A stretch of DNA of 50,300 nt from a virus. Below the pieces are notes generated by a model. It worked only from the letters and a program-made list of their open reading frames with translations. It did no database searches and was not told the origin of the DNA. The DNA is taken from positions 1 to 50,300 of IMG/VR virus record IMGVR_UViG_3300050190_000122; one strand, written 5' to 3'. This document shows positions 22,815 to 50,300 of the stretch, piece by piece (position 1 is the stretch's first letter; the number at the start of each line of letters is the position of its first letter). A program made the translations under genes and the position numbers.

Positions 22815-23705
22815 CTAGTTATTAGTTACTGCCATAGCAGCGAAGGTATCGAGTGCTACGCCACTAAGAGACTTAACATCACTCGCATCAAGAACCGGTT
22901 TGGTATAGGCAACTGTTACGACTTGCCCAGCTGTTGGAGGGGTAGTAGGGGTTAATAGAATAGTGTTGAGTTGGTTTACACCTCTCGTCGAAGCTGTCAC
23001 CACATCCGCTACCCCTGCTACCGTTACCGCAAAGCCTTCCAGGGGGGCCGTTACCGCTACGGTATCGTTAAGGGTTAGTAATACTTTGCCATTGTCGATG
23101 TACGGGGTACCGATCATGCTAAATAGAACTCCATCAGTAACTTTTGGGAATCGGATTTCGTAAGGGGAAACTGTTGGGGTATTCGGATCAATCGAAGCTG
23201 TGAAAGCGATAGGTAGGATATTGTCCGCGCTATCTTTGTTGGAGAATTTCAGCCCATCAGAACTTAATGCATTTTTGAGCATGATCACAACCGGCTTAGC
23301 AGATCCGCTAATGCGCCCGACCAGAGCTATATTATCAATGTAGTCGGTTAAAAGAATCTCAGTCTTTCCCGTGATAACGTCATAGTCGGTGCCCGTGGAG
23401 TCTATTACCCCCATCAATGCAATCCGTAGTGTTTCGGCAGTCACCTCAAGCATATTGACCTTCATGGTTACGTCCGTGCTAACGATCCTTGTTAAGCCCT
23501 TGACTGATCCTTTCAGGCCATCTACTTTAACGTCACGGGTCTTAACTTTGACATCAAACTCATTACCGCCAGATGTGGCGCCTAGTAGCTTCTCACCCGC
23601 TAAACCATAGTTCGTGTAAATCGCACCGGCATCAATTAATAGGTGCTGTGCTGTGGCTGGCGTATACCCGATTGTATTATCGCTTCCAACCGTCAAATTA
23701 ATCAC
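22815..23705 (-). CDS. major tail (tube) protein with C-terminal Ig-like domain, 296 aa
   Basis: Residues about 1-190 form a tail tube type domain: an early LLIDAGAIYTNYG, repeats of KVKTRDVKVDG and a beta-rich core, as in many clostridial siphophage tail tube proteins. The last 95 residues, with VSPYEIRF, LLTLNDTVAV and AGQVVTVAYTKP, have the look of a bacterial Ig-like module that decorates the outside of the tube. It follows the tail terminator gene and precedes the chaperones, the conserved order. Confidence 0.75.
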   Translation of the reverse strand: MINLTVGSDNTIGYTPATAQHLLIDAGAIYTNYGLAGEKLLGATSGGNEFDVKVKTRDVKVDGLKGSVKGLTRIVSTDVTMKVNMLEVTAETLRIALMGVIDSTGTDYDVITGKTEILLTDYIDNIALVGRISGSAKPVVIMLKNALSSDGLKFSNKDSADNILPIAFTASIDPNTPTVSPYEIRFPKVTDGVLFSMIGTPYIDNGKVLLTLNDTVAVTAPLEGFAVTVAGVADVVTASTRGVNQLNTILLTPTTPPTAGQVVTVAYTKPVLDASDVKSLSGVALDTFAAMAVTNN

Positions 23706-39925: not shown

Positions 39926-40858
39926 TCATGCCAGCAGATCGTCAAACGCTTCTTGCATGGCCATATGCAAGTTGTTAACGGCGATTCTGAAATAGCTGTC
40001 CTTGAGCTCCACTCCGACAAACCTGCGCCCCATTTTGATTGCCTGATATCCCTCGCTCCCAATACCTGCAAACGGTGAGAACACGATGTCATCGGGATTT
40101 GACCATAACTCCATAGATCTGGCAATCACGTCGAGCTGTAATGGGCAGATGTGCCGTTCGTCCTTATCTTCACGAGCTGATCGGTATTGTAGTGTGTTGC
40201 TTTGTCGAATGTCCATCCATACCGGAGATGCGTATTTACGCCACACCTGATGTGAATATACCGACTCACTTCCGGGCTCATTCTCACCAAAAAACCTTAC
40301 CATTCCATCAGGGTGTGTAATTGGTTCTGGGTTATCCCCTGGCTTCCGCATTGTTAAGACATAGTCTGGTAATCCTTGGCGACACATCGACGAGTCCTTG
40401 ACCAACTGCTTATGCATAAGTCCTAAAGCTTTTGTCCTAGTCGCCTCGACGAGTGGGTCTTTCCAGATTGTCACCCTAGAATGCCATATGAATCCCTCAT
40501 CCTCGAAAGCCTGTCGAAGCTGAGAAGGAAAATCTTTAATCCCTATATATCCATCCCGTGACTTCATCGCTGGAATATCCATGCAATGAAAGCTTACCAA
40601 CCGCCCGGGGATTGTTACTCTGAAGAGCTCGTGATTTAAAAATTTAAAATGCTCAAAGAATTCAGCGTCGTTTCGGCAATTGCCCATGTCTCGGTCACTA
40701 TTTGAGTAAGTATAGAGAGATGCAAAAGGTGGGGAAAAGATGCTGTAATGAATGCTGTTGTCAGGAAGCCCCCTGGCTACCTCCACGCAATCCCCGTTAT
40801 AAAGAGCAAAATCATTTTCAATAACTTGATCGATTGTATTAACTTGCAAGTGTCTCAC
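39926..40858 (-). CDS. beta-class DNA methyltransferase (adenine-N6 or cytosine-N4), 310 aa
   Basis: A 310-residue amino-methyltransferase: IFSPPF (SPPF, motif IV, about residues 38-43) comes before FSPFAGIGSEG (FxGxG, motif I, near residue 267), the order of the beta class. The middle region is the target recognition part. SPPF rather than DPPY is more frequent in N4-cytosine enzymes, but N6-adenine cannot be excluded. It overlaps the helicase gene upstream by 20 bases. It is likely an orphan phage enzyme to escape host restriction, as no nuclease gene is next to it. Start is GTG 40858 with GAGGA close upstream. Confidence 0.88.
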   Translation of the reverse strand: MRHLQVNTIDQVIENDFALYNGDCVEVARGLPDNSIHYSIFSPPFASLYTYSNSDRDMGNCRNDAEFFEHFKFLNHELFRVTIPGRLVSFHCMDIPAMKSRDGYIGIKDFPSQLRQAFEDEGFIWHSRVTIWKDPLVEATRTKALGLMHKQLVKDSSMCRQGLPDYVLTMRKPGDNPEPITHPDGMVRFFGENEPGSESVYSHQVWRKYASPVWMDIRQSNTLQYRSAREDKDERHICPLQLDVIARSMELWSNPDDIVFSPFAGIGSEGYQAIKMGRRFVGVELKDSYFRIAVNNLHMAMQEAFDDLLA

Positions 40859-43647: not shown

Positions 43648-45213
43648 CTATAAATTGACAGCCTCTCTGTCTTGGCCGGTACATAACTCGGGTAAATTGG
43701 ATCGTAGAAGATGTTCCGAAAATGGTGGAGGAACGGCATTACCACATTTTGCAACCTGCATGGACTTGGAAAGCTTTTTCCCAGTGCTATCATGATCGAT
43801 AATATAGTCTGACGGGAATCCATTGGCATTAAACAACTCCCTTGGCGTTAACATCCTGAGCCCAATGTCACTAATGAAATACTTTTCTCCGCCAATCTCA
43901 ATTATTAGGAGTTCATCCTCGCCGATATTGTAATCACAATACTCATTCAACATAGCTCGGACTTTTGGCCAATGCCCCAATCCTTGGGTATTGTTCGTTT
44001 TTCTCAAATAAGTTTTTACTACCCCAAATTGACCAATGCTTGCGGTTATTGTTTGCAATGGAGTATTAACCATCTGACCCTTATTGTCACCTTTGAATTT
44101 AACGATATGAACGACGCTAAGCCCACTTCGATCCTTACTGGTAATAGTGTGTAGTGGATCTGTTATCTCCTGGCCGATGCCTTGACCGTAATACTTAATT
44201 AAAGATGCAGATACTAACGCGTGTCTTGGCGATGCGTCGATCGTTAAGATAGGTTTATCAACCGTTTGTCCTCTTGCTTCAGGACTGTCGTGATATTGCA
44301 AGAGAGTTGGGGCAACTAGGAAGTTATGATCCCTTTGTGTAATTGTTGGTAATGGACTATCAATCGATCGACCTGACCCAGTGTAATACCCGCCGTACGC
44401 TTGCATAATGAAAGGCTTAGGATTCTTTAAGAAAAACTTATCTATCCCCTTGGCTATTCGCTTCATTGTGTTGTCAGCCAGAGGCCGAACGGCTTTAAGT
44501 CTATACTTTCTTTTGATCTCCCCTGCGGTTTCAAAAATAGACGGACTAGGTAATTCAAAGTCAATGACATCGGCTGCGGTAATCCAAGGTTTTAGTTTTC
44601 CAGACTCAACCTCTGCGCTCTTAGGATCTCCATGAGTTGGTTTTGGCCAAACGATTGGTTGACCGTCACATCTCGCAATCATAAACAGGCGCTTACGTGT
44701 TGTTGGTGCTCCGTAGTCACAGGCCCTTAGTTCTCGCCAATCAACTTTGTACCCTTGATATTTGAAAGCATTTATGAAAGTTCGGAATGTCCTGCCTTTT
44801 TGCTTAGGATCCGGAAGACTATCTTTGGTCAATGGTCCCCAGTCTTGGAATTCCTCAACGTTTTCGAGCATTATTACCCTCGGTCTTACTGTAGCAGCCC
44901 ACTTTATTCCTAGCCATGCAAGACCTCGAATGCCTTTATCCTTTGGCTTACCACCCCTGGCCTTACTATGATGTTTGCAGTCTGGGCTCAGCCAAAGTAA
45001 AGCAACTGGATGTCCCTTTGTGGCCTCCCTTGGATCCACTTCCCATACGGACTCACAATAGTGCTTCGTATTAGGATGATTCACCTCGTGCATGGCGATG
45101 GCTGCAGGATCATGGTTAATCGCTATATCTACGCTTCGTCCGATTGCCAGGGAGATACCCGTTGAGGCACCTCCACCGCCAGCAAAAGAATCAACAATGA
45201 TCTCTCTACCCAT
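43648..45213 (-). CDS. DNA (cytosine-5) methyltransferase, 521 aa
   Basis: C5-cytosine methyltransferase with DSFAGGGGAS (motif I, about residues 8-17), LSPDCKHHS with catalytic Cys79 (motif IV), LENVEEF (motif VI, 116-122), APTTRKRLFMIA (motif VIII) and a C-terminal FNANGFPSDY and GNAVPPPF (motifs IX-X). The region between VIII and IX, about 240-460, is long and has repeated TI-T-R/S-D/K units, probably recognising DNA. ATG 45213 overlaps the preceding gene and begins just before motif I; longer starts have no conserved sequence. No nuclease partner, so it is an orphan phage enzyme that shields phage DNA. Confidence 0.92.
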   Translation of the reverse strand: MGREIIVDSFAGGGGASTGISLAIGRSVDIAINHDPAAIAMHEVNHPNTKHYCESVWEVDPREATKGHPVALLWLSPDCKHHSKARGGKPKDKGIRGLAWLGIKWAATVRPRVIMLENVEEFQDWGPLTKDSLPDPKQKGRTFRTFINAFKYQGYKVDWRELRACDYGAPTTRKRLFMIARCDGQPIVWPKPTHGDPKSAEVESGKLKPWITAADVIDFELPSPSIFETAGEIKRKYRLKAVRPLADNTMKRIAKGIDKFFLKNPKPFIMQAYGGYYTGSGRSIDSPLPTITQRDHNFLVAPTLLQYHDSPEARGQTVDKPILTIDASPRHALVSASLIKYYGQGIGQEITDPLHTITSKDRSGLSVVHIVKFKGDNKGQMVNTPLQTITASIGQFGVVKTYLRKTNNTQGLGHWPKVRAMLNEYCDYNIGEDELLIIEIGGEKYFISDIGLRMLTPRELFNANGFPSDYIIDHDSTGKKLSKSMQVAKCGNAVPPPFSEHLLRSNLPELCTGQDREAVNL

Positions 45214-45376
45214 TTTGGCCAACTTCAATTTCCAATTCTGCGGGGTGCTCCGGACATCCGTATTTAGGACATAACAGGCAATCTTCTCCGGAAAGACCGA
45301 ACCCGGCGCAGTCATTGCACTTGCAACCGCGTTTATCGCATTCCTCCAAAACAACGTCACGGCAGTCTTTACTCAT
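45206..45376 (-). CDS. small Cys-rich protein, 56 aa
   Basis: A 56-residue protein with eight Cys in a 34-residue stretch (CDKRGCKCNDCAGFGLSGED, CLLCPKYGC), likely binding one or two zinc ions. ATG 45376 overlaps the stop of the upstream gene, and its own stop overlaps the methyltransferase start by eight bases, so translation is probably coupled. In-frame ATG codons a few bases upstream are possible alternatives. Function unknown. Confidence 0.65.
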   Translation of the reverse strand: MSKDCRDVVLEECDKRGCKCNDCAGFGLSGEDCLLCPKYGCPEHPAELEIEVGQNG

Positions 45377-45960: not shown

Positions 45961-46101
45961 TTAGATTCTCATGGATCCTCCTCTGAAAATAACCGATACT
46001 AAATGGCGCTTCCTTCGCTGTTCCTTCATTCGACGTTGGTAATCAACAATAACCCGACTGATACGATTGGACTTAAGTAAAATCCGGCGGAGATGTTTCA
46101 T
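45961..46101 (-). CDS. short very basic phage protein, 46 aa
   Basis: A 46-codon gene with GAAAGGAAG and nine-base spacer before ATG 46101. The product is about one-third Arg and Lys (RILLKSNRISRVIVDYQRRM), helical, and may bind nucleic acid. It fills a gap between two genes on the same strand. Confidence 0.55.
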   Translation of the reverse strand: MKHLRRILLKSNRISRVIVDYQRRMKEQRRKRHLVSVIFRGGSMRI

Positions 46102-46106
46102 CGGTT

Positions 46107-46316
46107 TCAACTTCCTTTCTCAGCAATTGGATAATCAAACTCTTGCCTCTTATACCAGCGCCACGGCGCGATCGCCAGCATGAACTCAAACTCAATCCTC
46201 TGGTCCTTTAGGTAATGCACTGTCCGGATGTCGATGATCTCTGTGGTAGTGCTGGCGAATCCAACTTTGTCGTTAAGCTCTACGTCACACATGGCCTTAA
46301 ATGATGCAAATTGCAT
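46107..46316 (-). CDS. hypothetical phage protein, 69 aa
   Basis: A 69-residue protein with EFEFMLAIAPWRWYKRQ; TTAAGGAG precedes the ATG. No family recognised. It lies in the early gene cluster and follows the 58-residue gene by 16 bp. Confidence 0.6.
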   Translation of the reverse strand: MQFASFKAMCDVELNDKVGFASTTTEIIDIRTVHYLKDQRIEFEFMLAIAPWRWYKRQEFDYPIAEKGS

Positions 46317-46332
46317 GTTATTACTCCTTAAT

Positions 46333-46509
46333 TTACCTGCTCAAAAGCCTAAAACTAATCTCTGCCACTTGGATCACTCCGGCCATGCTGGTCATTCTCC
46401 CAAATCCAATTCCGTTGACTCGAATATCTGTGGTGGTTAGATCCATGACCTCAGCGAATTGGGCGTTGGTTAATGGGCCTACGCTTGATTCAAGGATGTT
46501 TCTGAGCAT
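46333..46509 (-). CDS. short hypothetical phage protein, 58 aa
   Basis: A 58-codon gene with AAAGGAGG at good distance before ATG 46509. The product begins MLRNILESSVGPLTNAQFAE, then a turn and a second helix; it may be a small helix-turn-helix-like regulator. Only just below common gene-length limits. Confidence 0.65.
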   Translation of the reverse strand: MLRNILESSVGPLTNAQFAEVMDLTTTDIRVNGIGFGRMTSMAGVIQVAEISFRLLSR

Positions 46510-46555
46510 TTGGGGTTGCCTCCTTTAAGATATTTACAGGGTTTCCCTCTTTCAC

Positions 46556-46590
46556 TGTCGAAATGGTAGTTGGTAGACTGTTTTTCGACA
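46556..46590 (+). promoter_or_regulatory. 8-bp inverted repeat before the plus-strand early gene
   Basis: TGTCGAAA (46556-46563) and TTTCGACA (46583-46590) are exact inverted repeats just upstream of the ribosome binding site of the 53-residue gene. It may be an operator or an RNA hairpin that overlaps its translation start region. Confidence 0.45.
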
Positions 46591-46605
46591 AAGGAGGTGA
46601 ACTAT

Positions 46606-46767
46606 ATGCCTAAAAAATTGCCTTGGTATTCCATAAAGCGTTCTATACATCACAACAACACCAAATGTGACACCGGAAACAACATTGAAGCAGAAAACCT
46701 AAGGCAAGGTACAGGCGGGAATCCACTTTGTAAAGATTGCGCCGAGTTAAACGCAGCTGGGAAATAA
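46606..46767 (+). CDS. small phage protein on the opposite strand, 53 aa
   Basis: AAAGGAGGTG precedes ATG 46606. The product begins MPKKLPWYSIKRSIHHNNTK, with a Cys-x22-Cys-x2-Cys set (CDTGNN, then CKDC) that can bind zinc. It is the only convincing plus-strand gene within the minus-strand part of the phage, so it has its own promoter and may be active in the lysogen. The short sequence pattern HHNNTKC with GTGG and CKDCAELNAAGK appears conserved, but no function is known. Confidence 0.7.
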   Translation: MPKKLPWYSIKRSIHHNNTKCDTGNNIEAENLRQGTGGNPLCKDCAELNAAGK

Positions 46768-47055
46768 TCATTTGTGGTAAAATGTCATTTCCCAATCAGG
46801 GCCTGTTGGTTCACCGTCAATGATGGTCCATAGGCGCCTGAGGTTTGAGGGTTTTAAATCATTTTGCAGTGCGATTGCAAGTGCTTTGAAGCCCTCTTCT
46901 CTGTGCCCGTGAAATCGTACAGTAGGTTCGGGATAGCAATGCTCTATACCACCCTCGCATGATTCATAAGTTTCAATTCCACCCTCAACAAGAATTTCAA
47001 CCTCGTGTTTGATTCCCTTGTCGAGCGGTGGAGAATATTCTGTGGCATTATTCAT
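46768..47055 (-). CDS. hypothetical conserved phage protein, 95 aa
   Basis: A 95-residue protein with GGIETYESCEGGIEHCYPEP, then TVRFHGHREEG, a pattern that recurs in phage proteins of unknown role. AAGGAGG precedes the ATG. It is convergent with the plus-strand 53-residue gene and their stop codons adjoin. It overlaps its upstream neighbour by eight bases. Confidence 0.7.
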   Translation of the reverse strand: MNNATEYSPPLDKGIKHEVEILVEGGIETYESCEGGIEHCYPEPTVRFHGHREEGFKALAIALQNDLKPSNLRRLWTIIDGEPTGPDWEMTFYHK

Positions 47056-47257
47056 GTTTTACCTCCTTAACTAACTCGGTTTTGTGTGCGGCCTCAGACC
47101 TGTAGAGTTCTAATTCCTCCACAAGCTCCCGAACGTCTGGTGTTCGGTTATTCACAAACCCTTTAATGACTGTCGTCTGTACTTGATCTTGTTCCTCGAG
47201 TATGGCCACTCTTTTTTCAAGGGTTGATACGCGTTGCTCTAGGTTTTGATTCTCCAT
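47048..47257 (-). CDS. coiled-coil phage protein, 69 aa
   Basis: A 69-residue protein with an N-terminal leucine-heptad coil (LEQRVSTLEKRVAILEEQDQ, residues 5-24) and a second helix with VRELVEELELYRSEA. GGGAGG precedes the ATG. Probably makes a dimer; role unknown. Confidence 0.65.
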   Translation of the reverse strand: MENQNLEQRVSTLEKRVAILEEQDQVQTTVIKGFVNNRTPDVRELVEELELYRSEAAHKTELVKEVKHE

Positions 47258-47299
47258 GATTTTCCCTCCCTTGTTTAACCCGCTTGTTCCACTTACTGC

Positions 47300-47431
47300 C
47301 TACAGTTTGGCTTGTTCCATTTCATCCGAAAAGTTCTTTAAAAATAAATTTGCGGCTAAATCAATGGCTTGCTGTGGGTTGGGGTGTGGTATGATTTTAA
47401 CAGTGACGGTTAGTTTGGGGTGTTTTTTCAT
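47300..47431 (-). CDS. short hypothetical phage protein, 43 aa
   Basis: A 43-codon gene whose ATG overlaps the stop of the antirepressor-like gene (TAATG) and which has GAGGAG directly upstream. It begins MKKHPKLTVTVKIIPHPNPQ and ends in a helix. Small, but the coupling is typical. Confidence 0.65.
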   Translation of the reverse strand: MKKHPKLTVTVKIIPHPNPQQAIDLAANLFLKNFSDEMEQAKL

Positions 47432-48315
47432 TACTCCTCACCACTAGCAGGAGTCAGTTGGGCATCACTCAAACTCTTCTCTGTCAATTTTTCCAGTGCT
47501 TTCATAACGGTTTCATTCCATCGGATCTGATAATCGCTATGCCCGTTTCTCACAAATGGGAATTCCTCGCCATACTGTTTACCAGCTTCCGTAATGCGCC
47601 AATTCTTCTTTCCCTTTGCGTCCACCTGCTGTTCCTGTAAGCCCTTGGCGAGTAACATCTTATTGGCTTGAGCAGCGTTAACCCCAAGGCGATCACCAAT
47701 TTGGGTTGCGTTTAAGTATCCAATTTCATGCTCAGCAGATGGAAGGCATTTTGCAATCTCTGCTAGGTCAAGGCCGCTGTTCTTCTCCACTGCTCGGATA
47801 CATGCGGCCTGAGCTATGCCAATTTTGATACCTAACTTTTCCGTGAGATATTCCGCTGTATCAAAAGCGTCTTTAATTGCGGGCTTGACGCGGGAGGTTG
47901 TTCGGGGTTTGGTGAGAACGTTTTTTCGTTCCACTTCGATATTGAGAAGTAAATCACGAACAGTGCGGGCTACTAAGCTATCACGGAGTAACATGCCAAT
48001 ACGAAGAATTGCCCGGCGGGGGATGATCGTAAAGGATGAAGAGTTTTTACCAATCACACCCATGTCCTTAAGGGACATCAGTTCATCGCCCTTCAAAACC
48101 TTTAATCCATCAGATTCAAGCTCTTCACGATTGTCTTTGATTAAGGAGTTGACGGCCTCTTTCCCAACCCCGTAATACTCTGCAGATTGTTCTATGCTGA
48201 CATTCAGATCATCCGGTAACATCGTGAGTGCTTTTACTTTGTCGAGTACATCTGTTCGATCAATGACAGATTCGCGTAAGGATTTACTTTCGATTAATGA
48301 GTCGCTTTTCGACAT
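47431..48315 (-). CDS. phage antirepressor / regulator-like protein, 294 aa
   Basis: ATG 48315 has AAAAGGAGG upstream. Residues about 10-125 form a DNA-binding-like module (VSIEQSAEYYGVGKEAVNSL, an HTH, followed by FTIIPRRAILRIGMLLRDS), and the C-terminal part (about 180-280) is a second winged-helix-like unit (YLNATQIGDRLGVNAAQANK, then LLAKGLQEQ). This two-part plan occurs in phage antirepressor-like and Rha-like regulators. It is the second gene of the early operon after the Cro-like gene. The exact family is not certain. Confidence 0.65.
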   Translation of the reverse strand: MSKSDSLIESKSLRESVIDRTDVLDKVKALTMLPDDLNVSIEQSAEYYGVGKEAVNSLIKDNREELESDGLKVLKGDELMSLKDMGVIGKNSSSFTIIPRRAILRIGMLLRDSLVARTVRDLLLNIEVERKNVLTKPRTTSRVKPAIKDAFDTAEYLTEKLGIKIGIAQAACIRAVEKNSGLDLAEIAKCLPSAEHEIGYLNATQIGDRLGVNAAQANKMLLAKGLQEQQVDAKGKKNWRITEAGKQYGEEFPFVRNGHSDYQIRWNETVMKALEKLTEKSLSDAQLTPASGEE

Positions 48316-48381
48316 TTGTAATTTCCTCCTTTTCCTTTCTGGTTTGCCTACTTTTGGGTGGAGTCCGCCCAAAACTTAATT

Positions 48382-48720
48382 TTAATTTCTTACTAACGTT
48401 TCATTGAGAACATCTGATTTGGCTTGATCCAATACAGTAATTACCTGGCCAACGCTCAAACCGGATTCCCTAATGTGTCTGAATAGTGAATCTTTATCAA
48501 AGGGTTCGCTGCTTTCTGGTAGCGAGTTATCAATTCCACGCACTAAAGAATCTATTGTCATGTCAAAGTACTCCGCGACTTTTTGAACTTTATCAACACC
48601 TGGGTTACTTACATCCCACTTATAGATGGCCCCAGGGCCAAGTCCGAGTCCTCTTTCCAGCTTTGGAATAGAACTGTTGTGTTCTTTACAAAGAATTTTG
48701 ATGTTCTCAATCAGAGACAT
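48382..48720 (-). CDS. Cro-like XRE-family repressor, 112 aa
   Basis: The N-terminal HTH domain (about residues 1-65), with SSIPKLERGLGLGPGAIYKW and VDKVQKVAEYFDMTIDSL, matches XRE-type regulators. The C-terminal 45 residues are helical. It is the first gene of the minus-strand early operon from the promoter at 48914-48942. Its HTH is similar to that of the divergent CI-like protein, so both should bind the same TTAG-N8-CTAA sites. Presumed role: turn off repressor transcription and favour lytic growth. Confidence 0.85.
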   Translation of the reverse strand: MSLIENIKILCKEHNSSIPKLERGLGLGPGAIYKWDVSNPGVDKVQKVAEYFDMTIDSLVRGIDNSLPESSEPFDKDSLFRHIRESGLSVGQVITVLDQAKSDVLNETLVRN

Positions 48721-48771
48721 ACTGTTAACCTCCTTTCTTTACATAGACTAGTGGAAAATAACAGCCAAGTA

Positions 48772-48800
48772 TTGACATCAGTTAGAAAATATTCTAAAAT
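48772..48800 (+). promoter_or_regulatory. promoter of the repressor gene
   Basis: TTGACA (48772-48777), 17-bp spacer, TAAAAT (48795-48800), reading right toward the CI-like gene with a leader of about 190 bases. An operator (48782-48797) fills the spacer, so bound repressor would block it. It faces the early promoter at 48914-48942. Confidence 0.7.
48782..48797. promoter_or_regulatory. operator 1, TTAGAAAATATTCTAA
   Basis: A 16-bp TTAG-N8-CTAA site with inverted arms TTAGAA/TTCTAA, inside the repressor promoter. Confidence 0.7.
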
Positions 48801-48913
48801 TGAGCGTAGGAAATAAAACCTCATAAAAGTCGCCCCACAACGATTTTTCAATTGGGTCTTCATGGCTCTTGGTTTTTTGTTGCTTTCTTTCCGGTTACTA
48901 AGCTGTTAATACG

Positions 48914-48942
48914 ATTATATTAGCACATACGCTAAATGTCAA
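48914..48942 (-). promoter_or_regulatory. early lytic promoter, consensus sequence
   Basis: On the minus strand, TTGACA (48937-48942), 17-bp spacer and TATAAT (48914-48919) is a perfect sigma-A consensus. It drives the Cro-like gene and early operon after a leader of about 185 bases. An operator occupies its spacer. Confidence 0.85.
48920..48935. promoter_or_regulatory. operator 2, TTAGCACATACGCTAA
   Basis: A 16-bp TTAG-N8-CTAA site with TTAGC/GCTAA arms, exactly in the spacer of the early promoter. Bound repressor would exclude RNA polymerase. Confidence 0.75.
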
Positions 48943-48950
48943 CTTATTAT

Positions 48951-48966
48951 TTAGGCTATTTTCTAA
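48951..48966. promoter_or_regulatory. operator 3, TTAGGCTATTTTCTAA
   Basis: A third 16-bp TTAG-N8-CTAA site, 15 bp beyond operator 2, upstream of the early promoter -35 and 28 bp before the repressor start. The spacing centre to centre of operators 2 and 3 is 31 bp, near three helical turns, so cooperative binding is possible. Confidence 0.65.
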
Positions 48967-48994
48967 TTAATTTTTCTATAGGGGGTCTATTTTC

Positions 48995-49555
48995 ATGGGA
49001 ATTTGCGAAAACATTCAATTTTTATCTAAACACAAGGGTTTGCCGATTTCGCATTTAGAAAAAGAGCTATCTTTTGCAAATGGCTCAATTCGCAGGTGGA
49101 ACGAGAGTTCTCCTTCTATCGACAAGGTCCAAAAAGTCGCTGATTACTTTGAAGTATCAATTGATTTTTTAAATCTAGGTTTCGATAGGGAGATAATCGA
49201 TGCAGTAAAGTCACTAGCAAAAACTGGCAAAGACCTGCCTTATTTTCCTGAAAGCGTTCTTGTCGTTTTAACACCAGAGATTGAAAGCCTTAAAAAAGAA
49301 TATTGGGATGTTCCTCTTGATACAGAGCCTATTGAGATGATTTCATTGATAAGTGAAACGCCACTTTCTGTTGAATTCAAGAATGACTTACTGAATGTGT
49401 TTAGCCGGGTTAAGGAGAAATTAAATATCGGCGCTGGATCTGACATTACCACCCTTGCGGCTCACCATGACGGAGATGAGTGGACGGAAGAAGAATTAAC
49501 AGATATAGAAAGATTTAAAGAGTTTGTACGCTCGAAACGGAACGCTAAAAGCTGA
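48995..49555 (+). CDS. CI-like XRE-family phage repressor, 186 aa
   Basis: The N-terminal HTH (about residues 1-65) has LPISHLEKELSFANGSIRRW and IDKVQKVADYFEVSIDFL, closely like the Cro-like protein. The C-terminal 120 residues have no Ser/Lys LexA-type protease motif, so self-cleavage is unlikely; control by the adjacent ImmA/IrrE-like protein fits better. GGGGG precedes the ATG. It keeps the prophage silent by binding the three operators between it and the Cro-like gene. Confidence 0.85.
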   Translation: MGICENIQFLSKHKGLPISHLEKELSFANGSIRRWNESSPSIDKVQKVADYFEVSIDFLNLGFDREIIDAVKSLAKTGKDLPYFPESVLVVLTPEIESLKKEYWDVPLDTEPIEMISLISETPLSVEFKNDLLNVFSRVKEKLNIGAGSDITTLAAHHDGDEWTEEELTDIERFKEFVRSKRNAKS

Positions 49556-49564
49556 GGTGACGCT

Positions 49565-50029
49565 ATGTTATATCAAATGCTTCTTAACGATGCAGATAGA
49601 CAGAATGTCGCAGTATATGAGAGCTCCATGGGATCTAATCTCAGAGGTCTATACGGGGATAATATAATTTGGCTTAACCGAGGATTACCCACGTATACAG
49701 ACAAGGTATGCGTCCTTGCAGAAGAGATCGGGCATTATTACACATCCACTGGCGATATTTTAGACCAGAAAAAAATAGCCCACATCAAGCAAGAGAAGCG
49801 GGCCAAGAATTGGGGGTATGAAAAATTAATCCCCCTAAAGAGCTTTGTTGAAGCTTCTAGAGAGGGAGTCTCAAATTGTTATGAGCTTGCCAAATTTCTG
49901 GATGTGACTGAAGAATTTCTCGACTACGCCATAGAGCACTACAAAGAAAAATTCGGTTTATACACTGAGTGGGAAGATTATCTTATTTACTTTGACCCTC
50001 TCAGGGTACTCAAATTATTTGAAGGATAA
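49565..50029 (+). CDS. ImmA/IrrE-like protein with altered metal motif, 154 aa
   Basis: A protein of the ImmA/IrrE (DUF955) fold placed nine bp after the repressor gene, with GAGGTG before its ATG. In ImmA the motif HExxH binds zinc and the protein cleaves the phage repressor after DNA damage. Here the matching segment is LAEEIGHYYTSTGD: the first His is Glu (E-E-I-G-H), a variant that is frequent among phage members of this family. The C-terminal part is helical, with ELAKFLDVTEEFLDYAIEHY. It may be a modified protease or an anti-repressor without cleavage. Confidence 0.8.
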   Translation: MLYQMLLNDADRQNVAVYESSMGSNLRGLYGDNIIWLNRGLPTYTDKVCVLAEEIGHYYTSTGDILDQKKIAHIKQEKRAKNWGYEKLIPLKSFVEASREGVSNCYELAKFLDVTEEFLDYAIEHYKEKFGLYTEWEDYLIYFDPLRVLKLFEG

Positions 50030-50054
50030 CTATGAATCAGATGAGGTATTGAAT

Positions 50055-50192
50055 ATGAGTGCAATTCGTGCAGTAGCGTATGCAAGGTATAGCTCAGACA
50101 ACCAGCGAGAAGAATCCATTACAGCGCAACTAAGGGCGGTAAAAGAGTACTGCCAGCAAAAAGGGTATATTCTTCCTGCATTTCGCAACTAA
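50055..50192 (+). pseudogene. large serine recombinase (integrase) N-terminus, interrupted
   Basis: The first about 40 residues are those of a large serine recombinase: RAVAYARYSSDNQREESI with catalytic Ser (YARYSSDNQ) and TAQLRAVKEYCQQKGYI. Family members are over 450 residues. Here the family match stops after KKGYI or near, and the frame ends at 50192. The sequence after about 50170 has no recombinase character, so the gene is split by an inserted element or is truncated. The rest may lie beyond the right edge. GAGGT precedes ATG 50055. It would have carried out attP x attB integration of this prophage. Confidence 0.8.
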
Positions 50193-50300
50193 AAACCAGC
50201 AAATTGTAATACATTTACATAATTTCCATCTAGTTGCTGGACAACCTAACAAAAGACATATATTATAGATCTCAGAATACTGTCAAAGACGAGGAGGCAG
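50170..50300 (+). mobile_element. left part of an element inserted in the integrase gene
   Basis: Beyond the break in the recombinase, CCAGCAA (about 50197-50203) and TTGCTGG (50234-50240) form a hairpin; next to it is a promoter and, at the window end, GAGGAGG, a ribosome binding site for a gene that starts past the edge. Together they look like the 5' end of a transposable element. Its class cannot be told from this much. Confidence 0.5.
50238..50266 (+). promoter_or_regulatory. promoter of the gene beyond the right edge
   Basis: TGGACA (50238-50243), 17-bp spacer, TATTAT (50261-50266), followed by GAGGAGG at about 50291-50297. The -35 overlaps the right arm of the hairpin, as in self-regulated elements. 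Confidence 0.5.

Follow-up and report, generated by a model that had tools for sequence, protein, structure and literature searches.

How is the choice between lysogeny and lysis controlled in a phage whose repressor promoter and early lytic promoter fire at each other? Facing promoters with transcriptional interference are textbook for the P2-like coliphages. The studied Gram-positive switches, among those consulted in the open literature, use back-to-back promoters, and a limited search of the open-licence literature found no description of the facing layout in Firmicutes phages. The window analysed here is the whole of IMG/VR record IMGVR_UViG_3300050190_000122 (50,300 bases) and is a temperate phage. 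In the left 48.7 kb the minus strand encodes lytic functions (terminase large subunit, portal, major head protein, primase/helicase), and the early lytic operon on this strand is headed by a gene for a Cro-like protein. The plus strand at the right end encodes a CI-like repressor, an ImmA/IrrE-like metalloprotease and the start of a resolvase-like recombinase. The genes around the switch region are as follows.

48382..48720, minus strand: Cro-like HTH protein, 112 aa (phrog_18248, E 1.6e-18)
274 bp: intergenic region between the Cro-like gene and the repressor gene
48995..49555, plus strand: CI-like repressor, 186 aa (phrog_18248, E 1.7e-20), with recognition helix ANGSIRRW
49565..50029, plus strand: ImmA/IrrE-like (M78) metalloprotease, candidate antirepressor (PF06114, E 3.5e-7; phrog_87, E 1.3e-36)
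50055-50192, plus strand: start of the resolvase-like recombinase (MSAIRAVAYARYSSDNQREES...), which stops after about 45 codons, near the record end

The repressor matches phrog_18248, phrog_8 and phrog_2967, and an N-terminal HTH alignment identifies the Cro-like protein as its paralogue in the HTH. The recombinase fragment is either a truncated integrase or a provirus edge. Farther left in the window, 43648-45360 and 39926-40858 look by motif like two DNA methyltransferases, the one at 43648-45360 being of the cytosine-5 type.

The 274-bp intergenic region holds two promoters and three palindromes of a single code.

48772..48800, plus strand: repressor promoter (-35 TTGACA 48772-48777, 17-bp spacer, -10 TAAAAT 48795-48800; 11/12 consensus)
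48914..48942, minus strand: early lytic promoter (-35 TTGACA 48942-48937, 17-bp spacer, -10 TATAAT 48919-48914; 12/12 consensus)
48920..48935: O1 TTAGCACATACGCTAA, putative repressor operator wholly inside the early-promoter spacer
48951..48966: O2 TTAGGCTATTTTCTAA, putative repressor operator upstream of the minus promoter, its centre 31 bp from that of O1
48782..48797: O3 TTAGAAAATATTCTAA, putative repressor operator in the repressor-promoter spacer and the first 3 bp of its -10

Both promoters are present and facing as the preliminary description had them, and they rank first and second among the seven promoter-like sites in 46000-50300. When the 274-bp intergenic region was shuffled 20,000 times under a composition-matched first-order Markov model, none of the resulting sequences had a facing pair 110-190 bp apart that matched at 23/24 positions or better, and 4 had one at 20/24 or better. 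When starts are placed 7 bp past each -10, transcription is predicted to begin at about 48807 (repressor) and about 48907 (early). The two transcripts would therefore overlap by about 100 bp, in agreement with the extent proposed earlier.

The three TTAG-N8-CTAA sites reported previously are likewise in place. The statement that two of them lie exactly within promoter spacers holds for O1, whereas O3 also reaches three bases into the plus -10. The centres of O1 and O2 are 31 bp apart (three helical turns) and those of O1 and O3 138 bp apart (13.1 turns). The code has one further match in the whole window, at 23296, which falls within a reading frame and was regarded as a chance occurrence. Three copies of this code in the intergenic region were not obtained in any of 20,000 shuffles. 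When the code is left unfixed (any 4-base code, gaps of 6-10), three palindromes of the same code appear in about 2% of shuffles (31/1,500); the weight of the three palindromes comes from comparison with other loci.

Judged from such comparison, the facing-promoter layout is a class and not a single case. Facing promoters with a repressor-like gene alongside are kept in 102 distinct loci, most with -35s 162-171 bp apart; part of these loci, which were all used for co-variation tests, were retrieved by scanning for CGTTGGGGAACG downstream of a plus-type promoter (at least 120 stretches), and the scanned loci give no independent support for those features because they were selected by them. Relatives picked by repressor similarity retain the facing promoters. 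Among the 80 viral loci retrieved solely through protein similarity, 35 have facing promoters that each match at 10/12 positions or better, and the -35s are 166-171 bp apart in 59/76 loci (all loci at that stage).

The putative operators change together from locus to locus. The plus spacer resembles the minus spacer of its own locus (10.61 vs 8.34±0.14 permuted, 0/5000; 72 representatives), in a set whose loci share ancestry, for which the permutation tests used for co-variation control only in part. Similarity among minus spacers tracks the repressor recognition helix even when the remainder of the HTH is taken into account (partial r 0.25, Mantel 0/2000; 72 representatives), and in the 59 loci with a TEFG-type Cro the spacer operators track CI (partial r 0.40) more than Cro (0.14). 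A second O1-like site is found at the O2 position across the 102 loci (13.0 of 17 vs 10.05±0.11 permuted, 0/3000). The centre spacing of the O1-O2 type is 28-32 bp in 78 of 83 strong cases, and in the window it is 31 bp. In several lineages (L100, L203) RRW recognition helices are paired with TTAGC/GCTAA half-sites, and the window repressor is likewise RRW. Facing promoters with operators in their spacers, the core of the preliminary interpretation, are thus strongly supported by the layout in 102 distinct loci and by operators that co-vary with the recognition helix. From these patterns of sequence match and co-variation, which bear on it indirectly, we infer protein binding at the sites, and occlusion of the promoters by the repressor is well supported by that inference.

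Two features absent from the preliminary description are a second pair of sites and a conserved element between the promoters. The pair is made up of the following.

48759..48770, plus strand: C1 TAACAGCCAAGT, candidate Cro-like operator that ends one base short of the repressor -35
48897..48908, minus strand: C2 TAACAGCTTAGT, inverted copy of C1 at the predicted early start, candidate Cro-like operator

Within a locus C1 and C2 co-vary (10.0 vs 8.74±0.11 permuted, 0/3000; 102 loci). In the 59 TEFG-type Cro loci the C-sites follow Cro (partial r 0.51, 0/2000), with little sign of tracking the repressor (0.07, 83/2000). Since that test covers TEFG-type Cro loci and the Cro-like protein of the window is a repressor paralogue, C1 and C2 are assigned to the Cro-like protein in the window by position. 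The repressor and the Cro-like HTH protein probably use different sites, the latter the C1/C2 pair.

The conserved element fills the transcript overlap and contains three hairpins, two of which are given separately.

48803..48913, plus strand: conserved element with the P1, P2 and P3 hairpins, in the approximately 110 bp between the -10s, with transcription predicted from both strands
48829..48844, plus strand: P2 hairpin GTCG-CCCCACAA-CGAT (CGTT-GGGG-AACG in most relatives)
48854..48868, plus strand: P3 hairpin GGGTC-TTCAT-GGCTC, with two G-U pairs on the plus strand

Among 36 Paenibacillus-type loci, mean pairwise identity is higher between the -10s (0.67) than in the O1 spacer (0.51) and lowest in the O1-O2 stretch (0.37). 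The three helices are supported by covariation: in an alignment made without the window, both-side changes amount to 27 cells, against 12.6±2.8 after shuffling (0/500) and 1-13 in partner slides. A covariance model that was also built without the window recovers 48803-48913 of the window with 70.6 bits (E 2.7e-10). The model matches 7 of 248 genomes of one order, with one copy in each. It contains no promoter, and all ten of the genome loci that it found have facing promoters on either side, with a distance of 167-170 bp between them. Besides the window, the element was seen in L001-L004 and L024-L282.

The orientation of the folded strand is indicated by G-U pairs, which extend P3 on the repressor strand in about 15 loci, whereas A-C extensions (G-U on the other strand) practically never occur. 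This supports a structure on the repressor-leader strand in the Paenibacillus type, and the overlap element is probably folded in the repressor leader. The P2 loop is GGGG on the repressor strand in most relatives, a count inflated because many loci were fetched using CGTTGGGGAACG, and CCCC or C-rich on that strand in L007, L040, L061, L062, L064, L102, L116, L228, L265 and the window. Thermodynamics alone is no proof of an RNA, because whole-overlap folding energies are unremarkable on both strands; the 113-nt overlap of the window is no more stable than its shuffles (z -0.5). No Rfam match at E ≤ 1 was found in 47500-50300 of the window, nor in the overlap region of six related loci, where the only matches were tmRNA pieces at the locus ends. 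No paper containing the P2 sequence CGTTGGGGAACG was found in the open-licence literature. A role of P2/P3 as a terminator was rejected, the U-run being lost in the Bacillus type and not lying directly 3' of P3. Several roles are conceivable for the overlap: it could keep the repressor leader stable or regulate it, make polymerase pause, or serve as mutual antisense RNA.

The third gene of the proposed switch lies directly downstream of the repressor gene, where the M78/DUF955 metalloprotease is encoded as in the ImmR/ImmA module. The C-terminal tail of the repressor, TLAAHHDGDEWTEEEL, has AAHHD at residue 155 and fits the AA/H cleavage motif TIAAHID...EE. That motif, with the cut between A and H, was mapped for the related protease MpaR of the Listeria monocin (PMC6872733). 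Because the AAHHD tail matches this MpaR cut site, induction probably proceeds by an ImmA-like protease that would cut the repressor at AA/HHD.

Taken together, the locus is very probably the lysis-lysogeny switch of a temperate tailed Firmicutes phage, with head-on promoters, control through O1-O3 and C1-C2, and induction by a protease. The promoter at 48772 would serve the repressor gene and that at 48942 the early lytic operon, and the two would fire head-on across about 100 bp. Repressor bound to O1 and O2 would occlude the early promoter, and at a higher level it would also occupy O3 in its own promoter and thereby limit itself. Once the early promoter fires, polymerases would cross O3 and the repressor promoter, and transcriptional interference is expected to silence the latter; the early promoter, which has the consensus sequence, should prevail over it in this way. 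The Cro-like protein on C1, beside the repressor -35, would shut the repressor promoter, and on C2, at the early start, it would limit its own expression. Induction would follow when the ImmA-like protease cuts the repressor. The overlap would render the 5' ends of both leaders complementary.

Other readings concern the origin of the repressor transcript and the role of the overlap. The repressor could be driven by a promoter near its gene that stands back to back with the early one, which is the layout of the much-studied Gram-positive switch of TP901-1 (PMC7250872), the site at 48772 being chance or minor. A candidate of this kind had been named earlier as the observation that would overturn the facing arrangement. 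The best plus-strand match in 48840-48965, at 48920, is indeed nearer the repressor gene, but it is a poor one (9/12, 19-bp spacer) and overlaps O1. The distant promoter, in turn, is kept with its distance in the 102 loci and flanks 10/10 matches of the promoter-free model, which makes a promoter close to the gene very improbable.

The overlap could instead function as DNA only and not as RNA, either through sites for the Cro-like protein or a host factor or by fixing the length of a repressor loop at 138 bp. We consider this a real possibility, if short of a probable one. C1 and C2 act like protein operators in co-variation, the P2-like phages have Apl/Cox sites in the DNA between their facing promoters (PMC7498355), and the folding energies of the overlap are modest on both strands. 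The O1-O3 distance of 13.1 turns would suit a loop, and the promoter spacings are weakly phased at 10.5 bp (p about 0.02). However, P1-P3 covary, P3 gains its G-U pairs on the plus strand with A-C extensions essentially absent, and much of the conserved overlap sequence falls outside C1/C2. A further reading takes the 5' leaders as mutual antisense RNAs, whose G/C-rich hairpin loops would kiss and whose duplex would silence or destabilise the rarer transcript. From the promoter positions it follows that the two transcripts would be complementary over about 100 nt at their 5' ends, and the P2 loop is G- or C-rich across lineages, a flip that loop-loop contact would tolerate. A DNA palindrome could flip too, though, and the GGGG counts are inflated by the fetching of many loci via CGTTGGGGAACG; we regard mutual antisense action as tentative and on the unlikely side. 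Equally doubtful is the broader proposal of a phage-switch class, widespread in Firmicutes, that links control at the DNA level to control by RNA, in which antisense leaders of approximately 100 nt, with hairpins that decide the surviving message, would be added to two operator systems.

The head-on switch proposed here can be set beside several known systems. Its resemblance to 186 and P2 (pR-pL, Pe-Pc) lies in the convergent lytic and lysogenic promoters, in repressor operators placed across the lytic promoter, and in separate sites for a second protein on the lytic side (PMC7498355). The promoters of 186/P2 are 40-60 bp apart (PMC7498355), whereas the predicted starts here are about 100 bp apart. 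Their second protein is the excisionase Apl/Cox, which uses direct repeats; here it is a regulator-type Cro-like HTH protein, and the co-varying sites form an inverted pair. Interference in phage 186 works in one direction only (PMC7498355). Unlike 186/P2, a conserved leader element lies between the promoters here. The repressor has no Pfam match at E ≤ 0.001 and therefore none to a P2/186 repressor family, and no PDB chain was matched by its sequence. The likeness to phage 186 drawn in the preliminary description thus extends to the architecture of facing promoters but not to kinship: the switch would work like those of 186/P2, yet stands outside that group because spacing and repressor family differ.

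The CI-MOR switches of TP901-1 and phi13 share with the locus divergent genes for two HTH proteins, a Gram-positive phage background and three repressor operators. In TP901-1 the promoters are back to back around the central operator OR (PMC7250872), whereas here they face. The sequence TCAACAGCTTAA resembles the TP901-1 OM motif TCAACAnAA. A repressor gene followed by an M78 metalloprotease gene is also the order in the ImmR/ImmA modules (ICEBs1, phi105, Listeria monocin CI-like/MpaR), and the repressor tail here resembles the MpaR cut site (PMC6872733). The parts of the ImmR/ImmA studies consulted describe the protease mechanism, without the facing-promoter layout or the leader element. Bacillus phage BCJA1c (NC_006557) is a relative within the class, with facing promoters 188 bp apart. 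Its GenBank record labels two 16-bp palindromes, AGCTAAATTATTAGCT and AGCTAATAAATTAGCT, as repressor-binding; these are of the C1/C2 kind, which tracks the Cro-like protein rather than the repressor in our analysis.

The facing design spans phages of Paenibacillus, Bacillus, Listeria, Enterococcus, Streptococcus and others, probably including Staphylococcus. So many natural versions would let interference, DNA looping and antisense RNA be separated, and from the design an operator code can be predicted for many prophage immunity regions that lack annotation. Named members are the P. larvae phages HB10c2 and Bob, Listeria PSA, B025 and LP-P111, S. pneumoniae SpGS-1, Bacillus BCJA1c and Enterococcus B1578. 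The plus promoter is weaker in S. aureus phiETA2, and the relative L. lactis 98204 has no clear one. Listeria A118 was rejected as a member, its intergenic region being 126 bp and its annotated promoters divergent. A close relative, L003:2818-2943, has unchanged operators with -35s only 125 bp apart, and its overlap element seems shortened; the Cro-like gene of L003 is a different one and apparently frame-broken. The right ends of L002 and L036 carry the 3' part of a tmRNA gene, which suggests integration next to ssrA.
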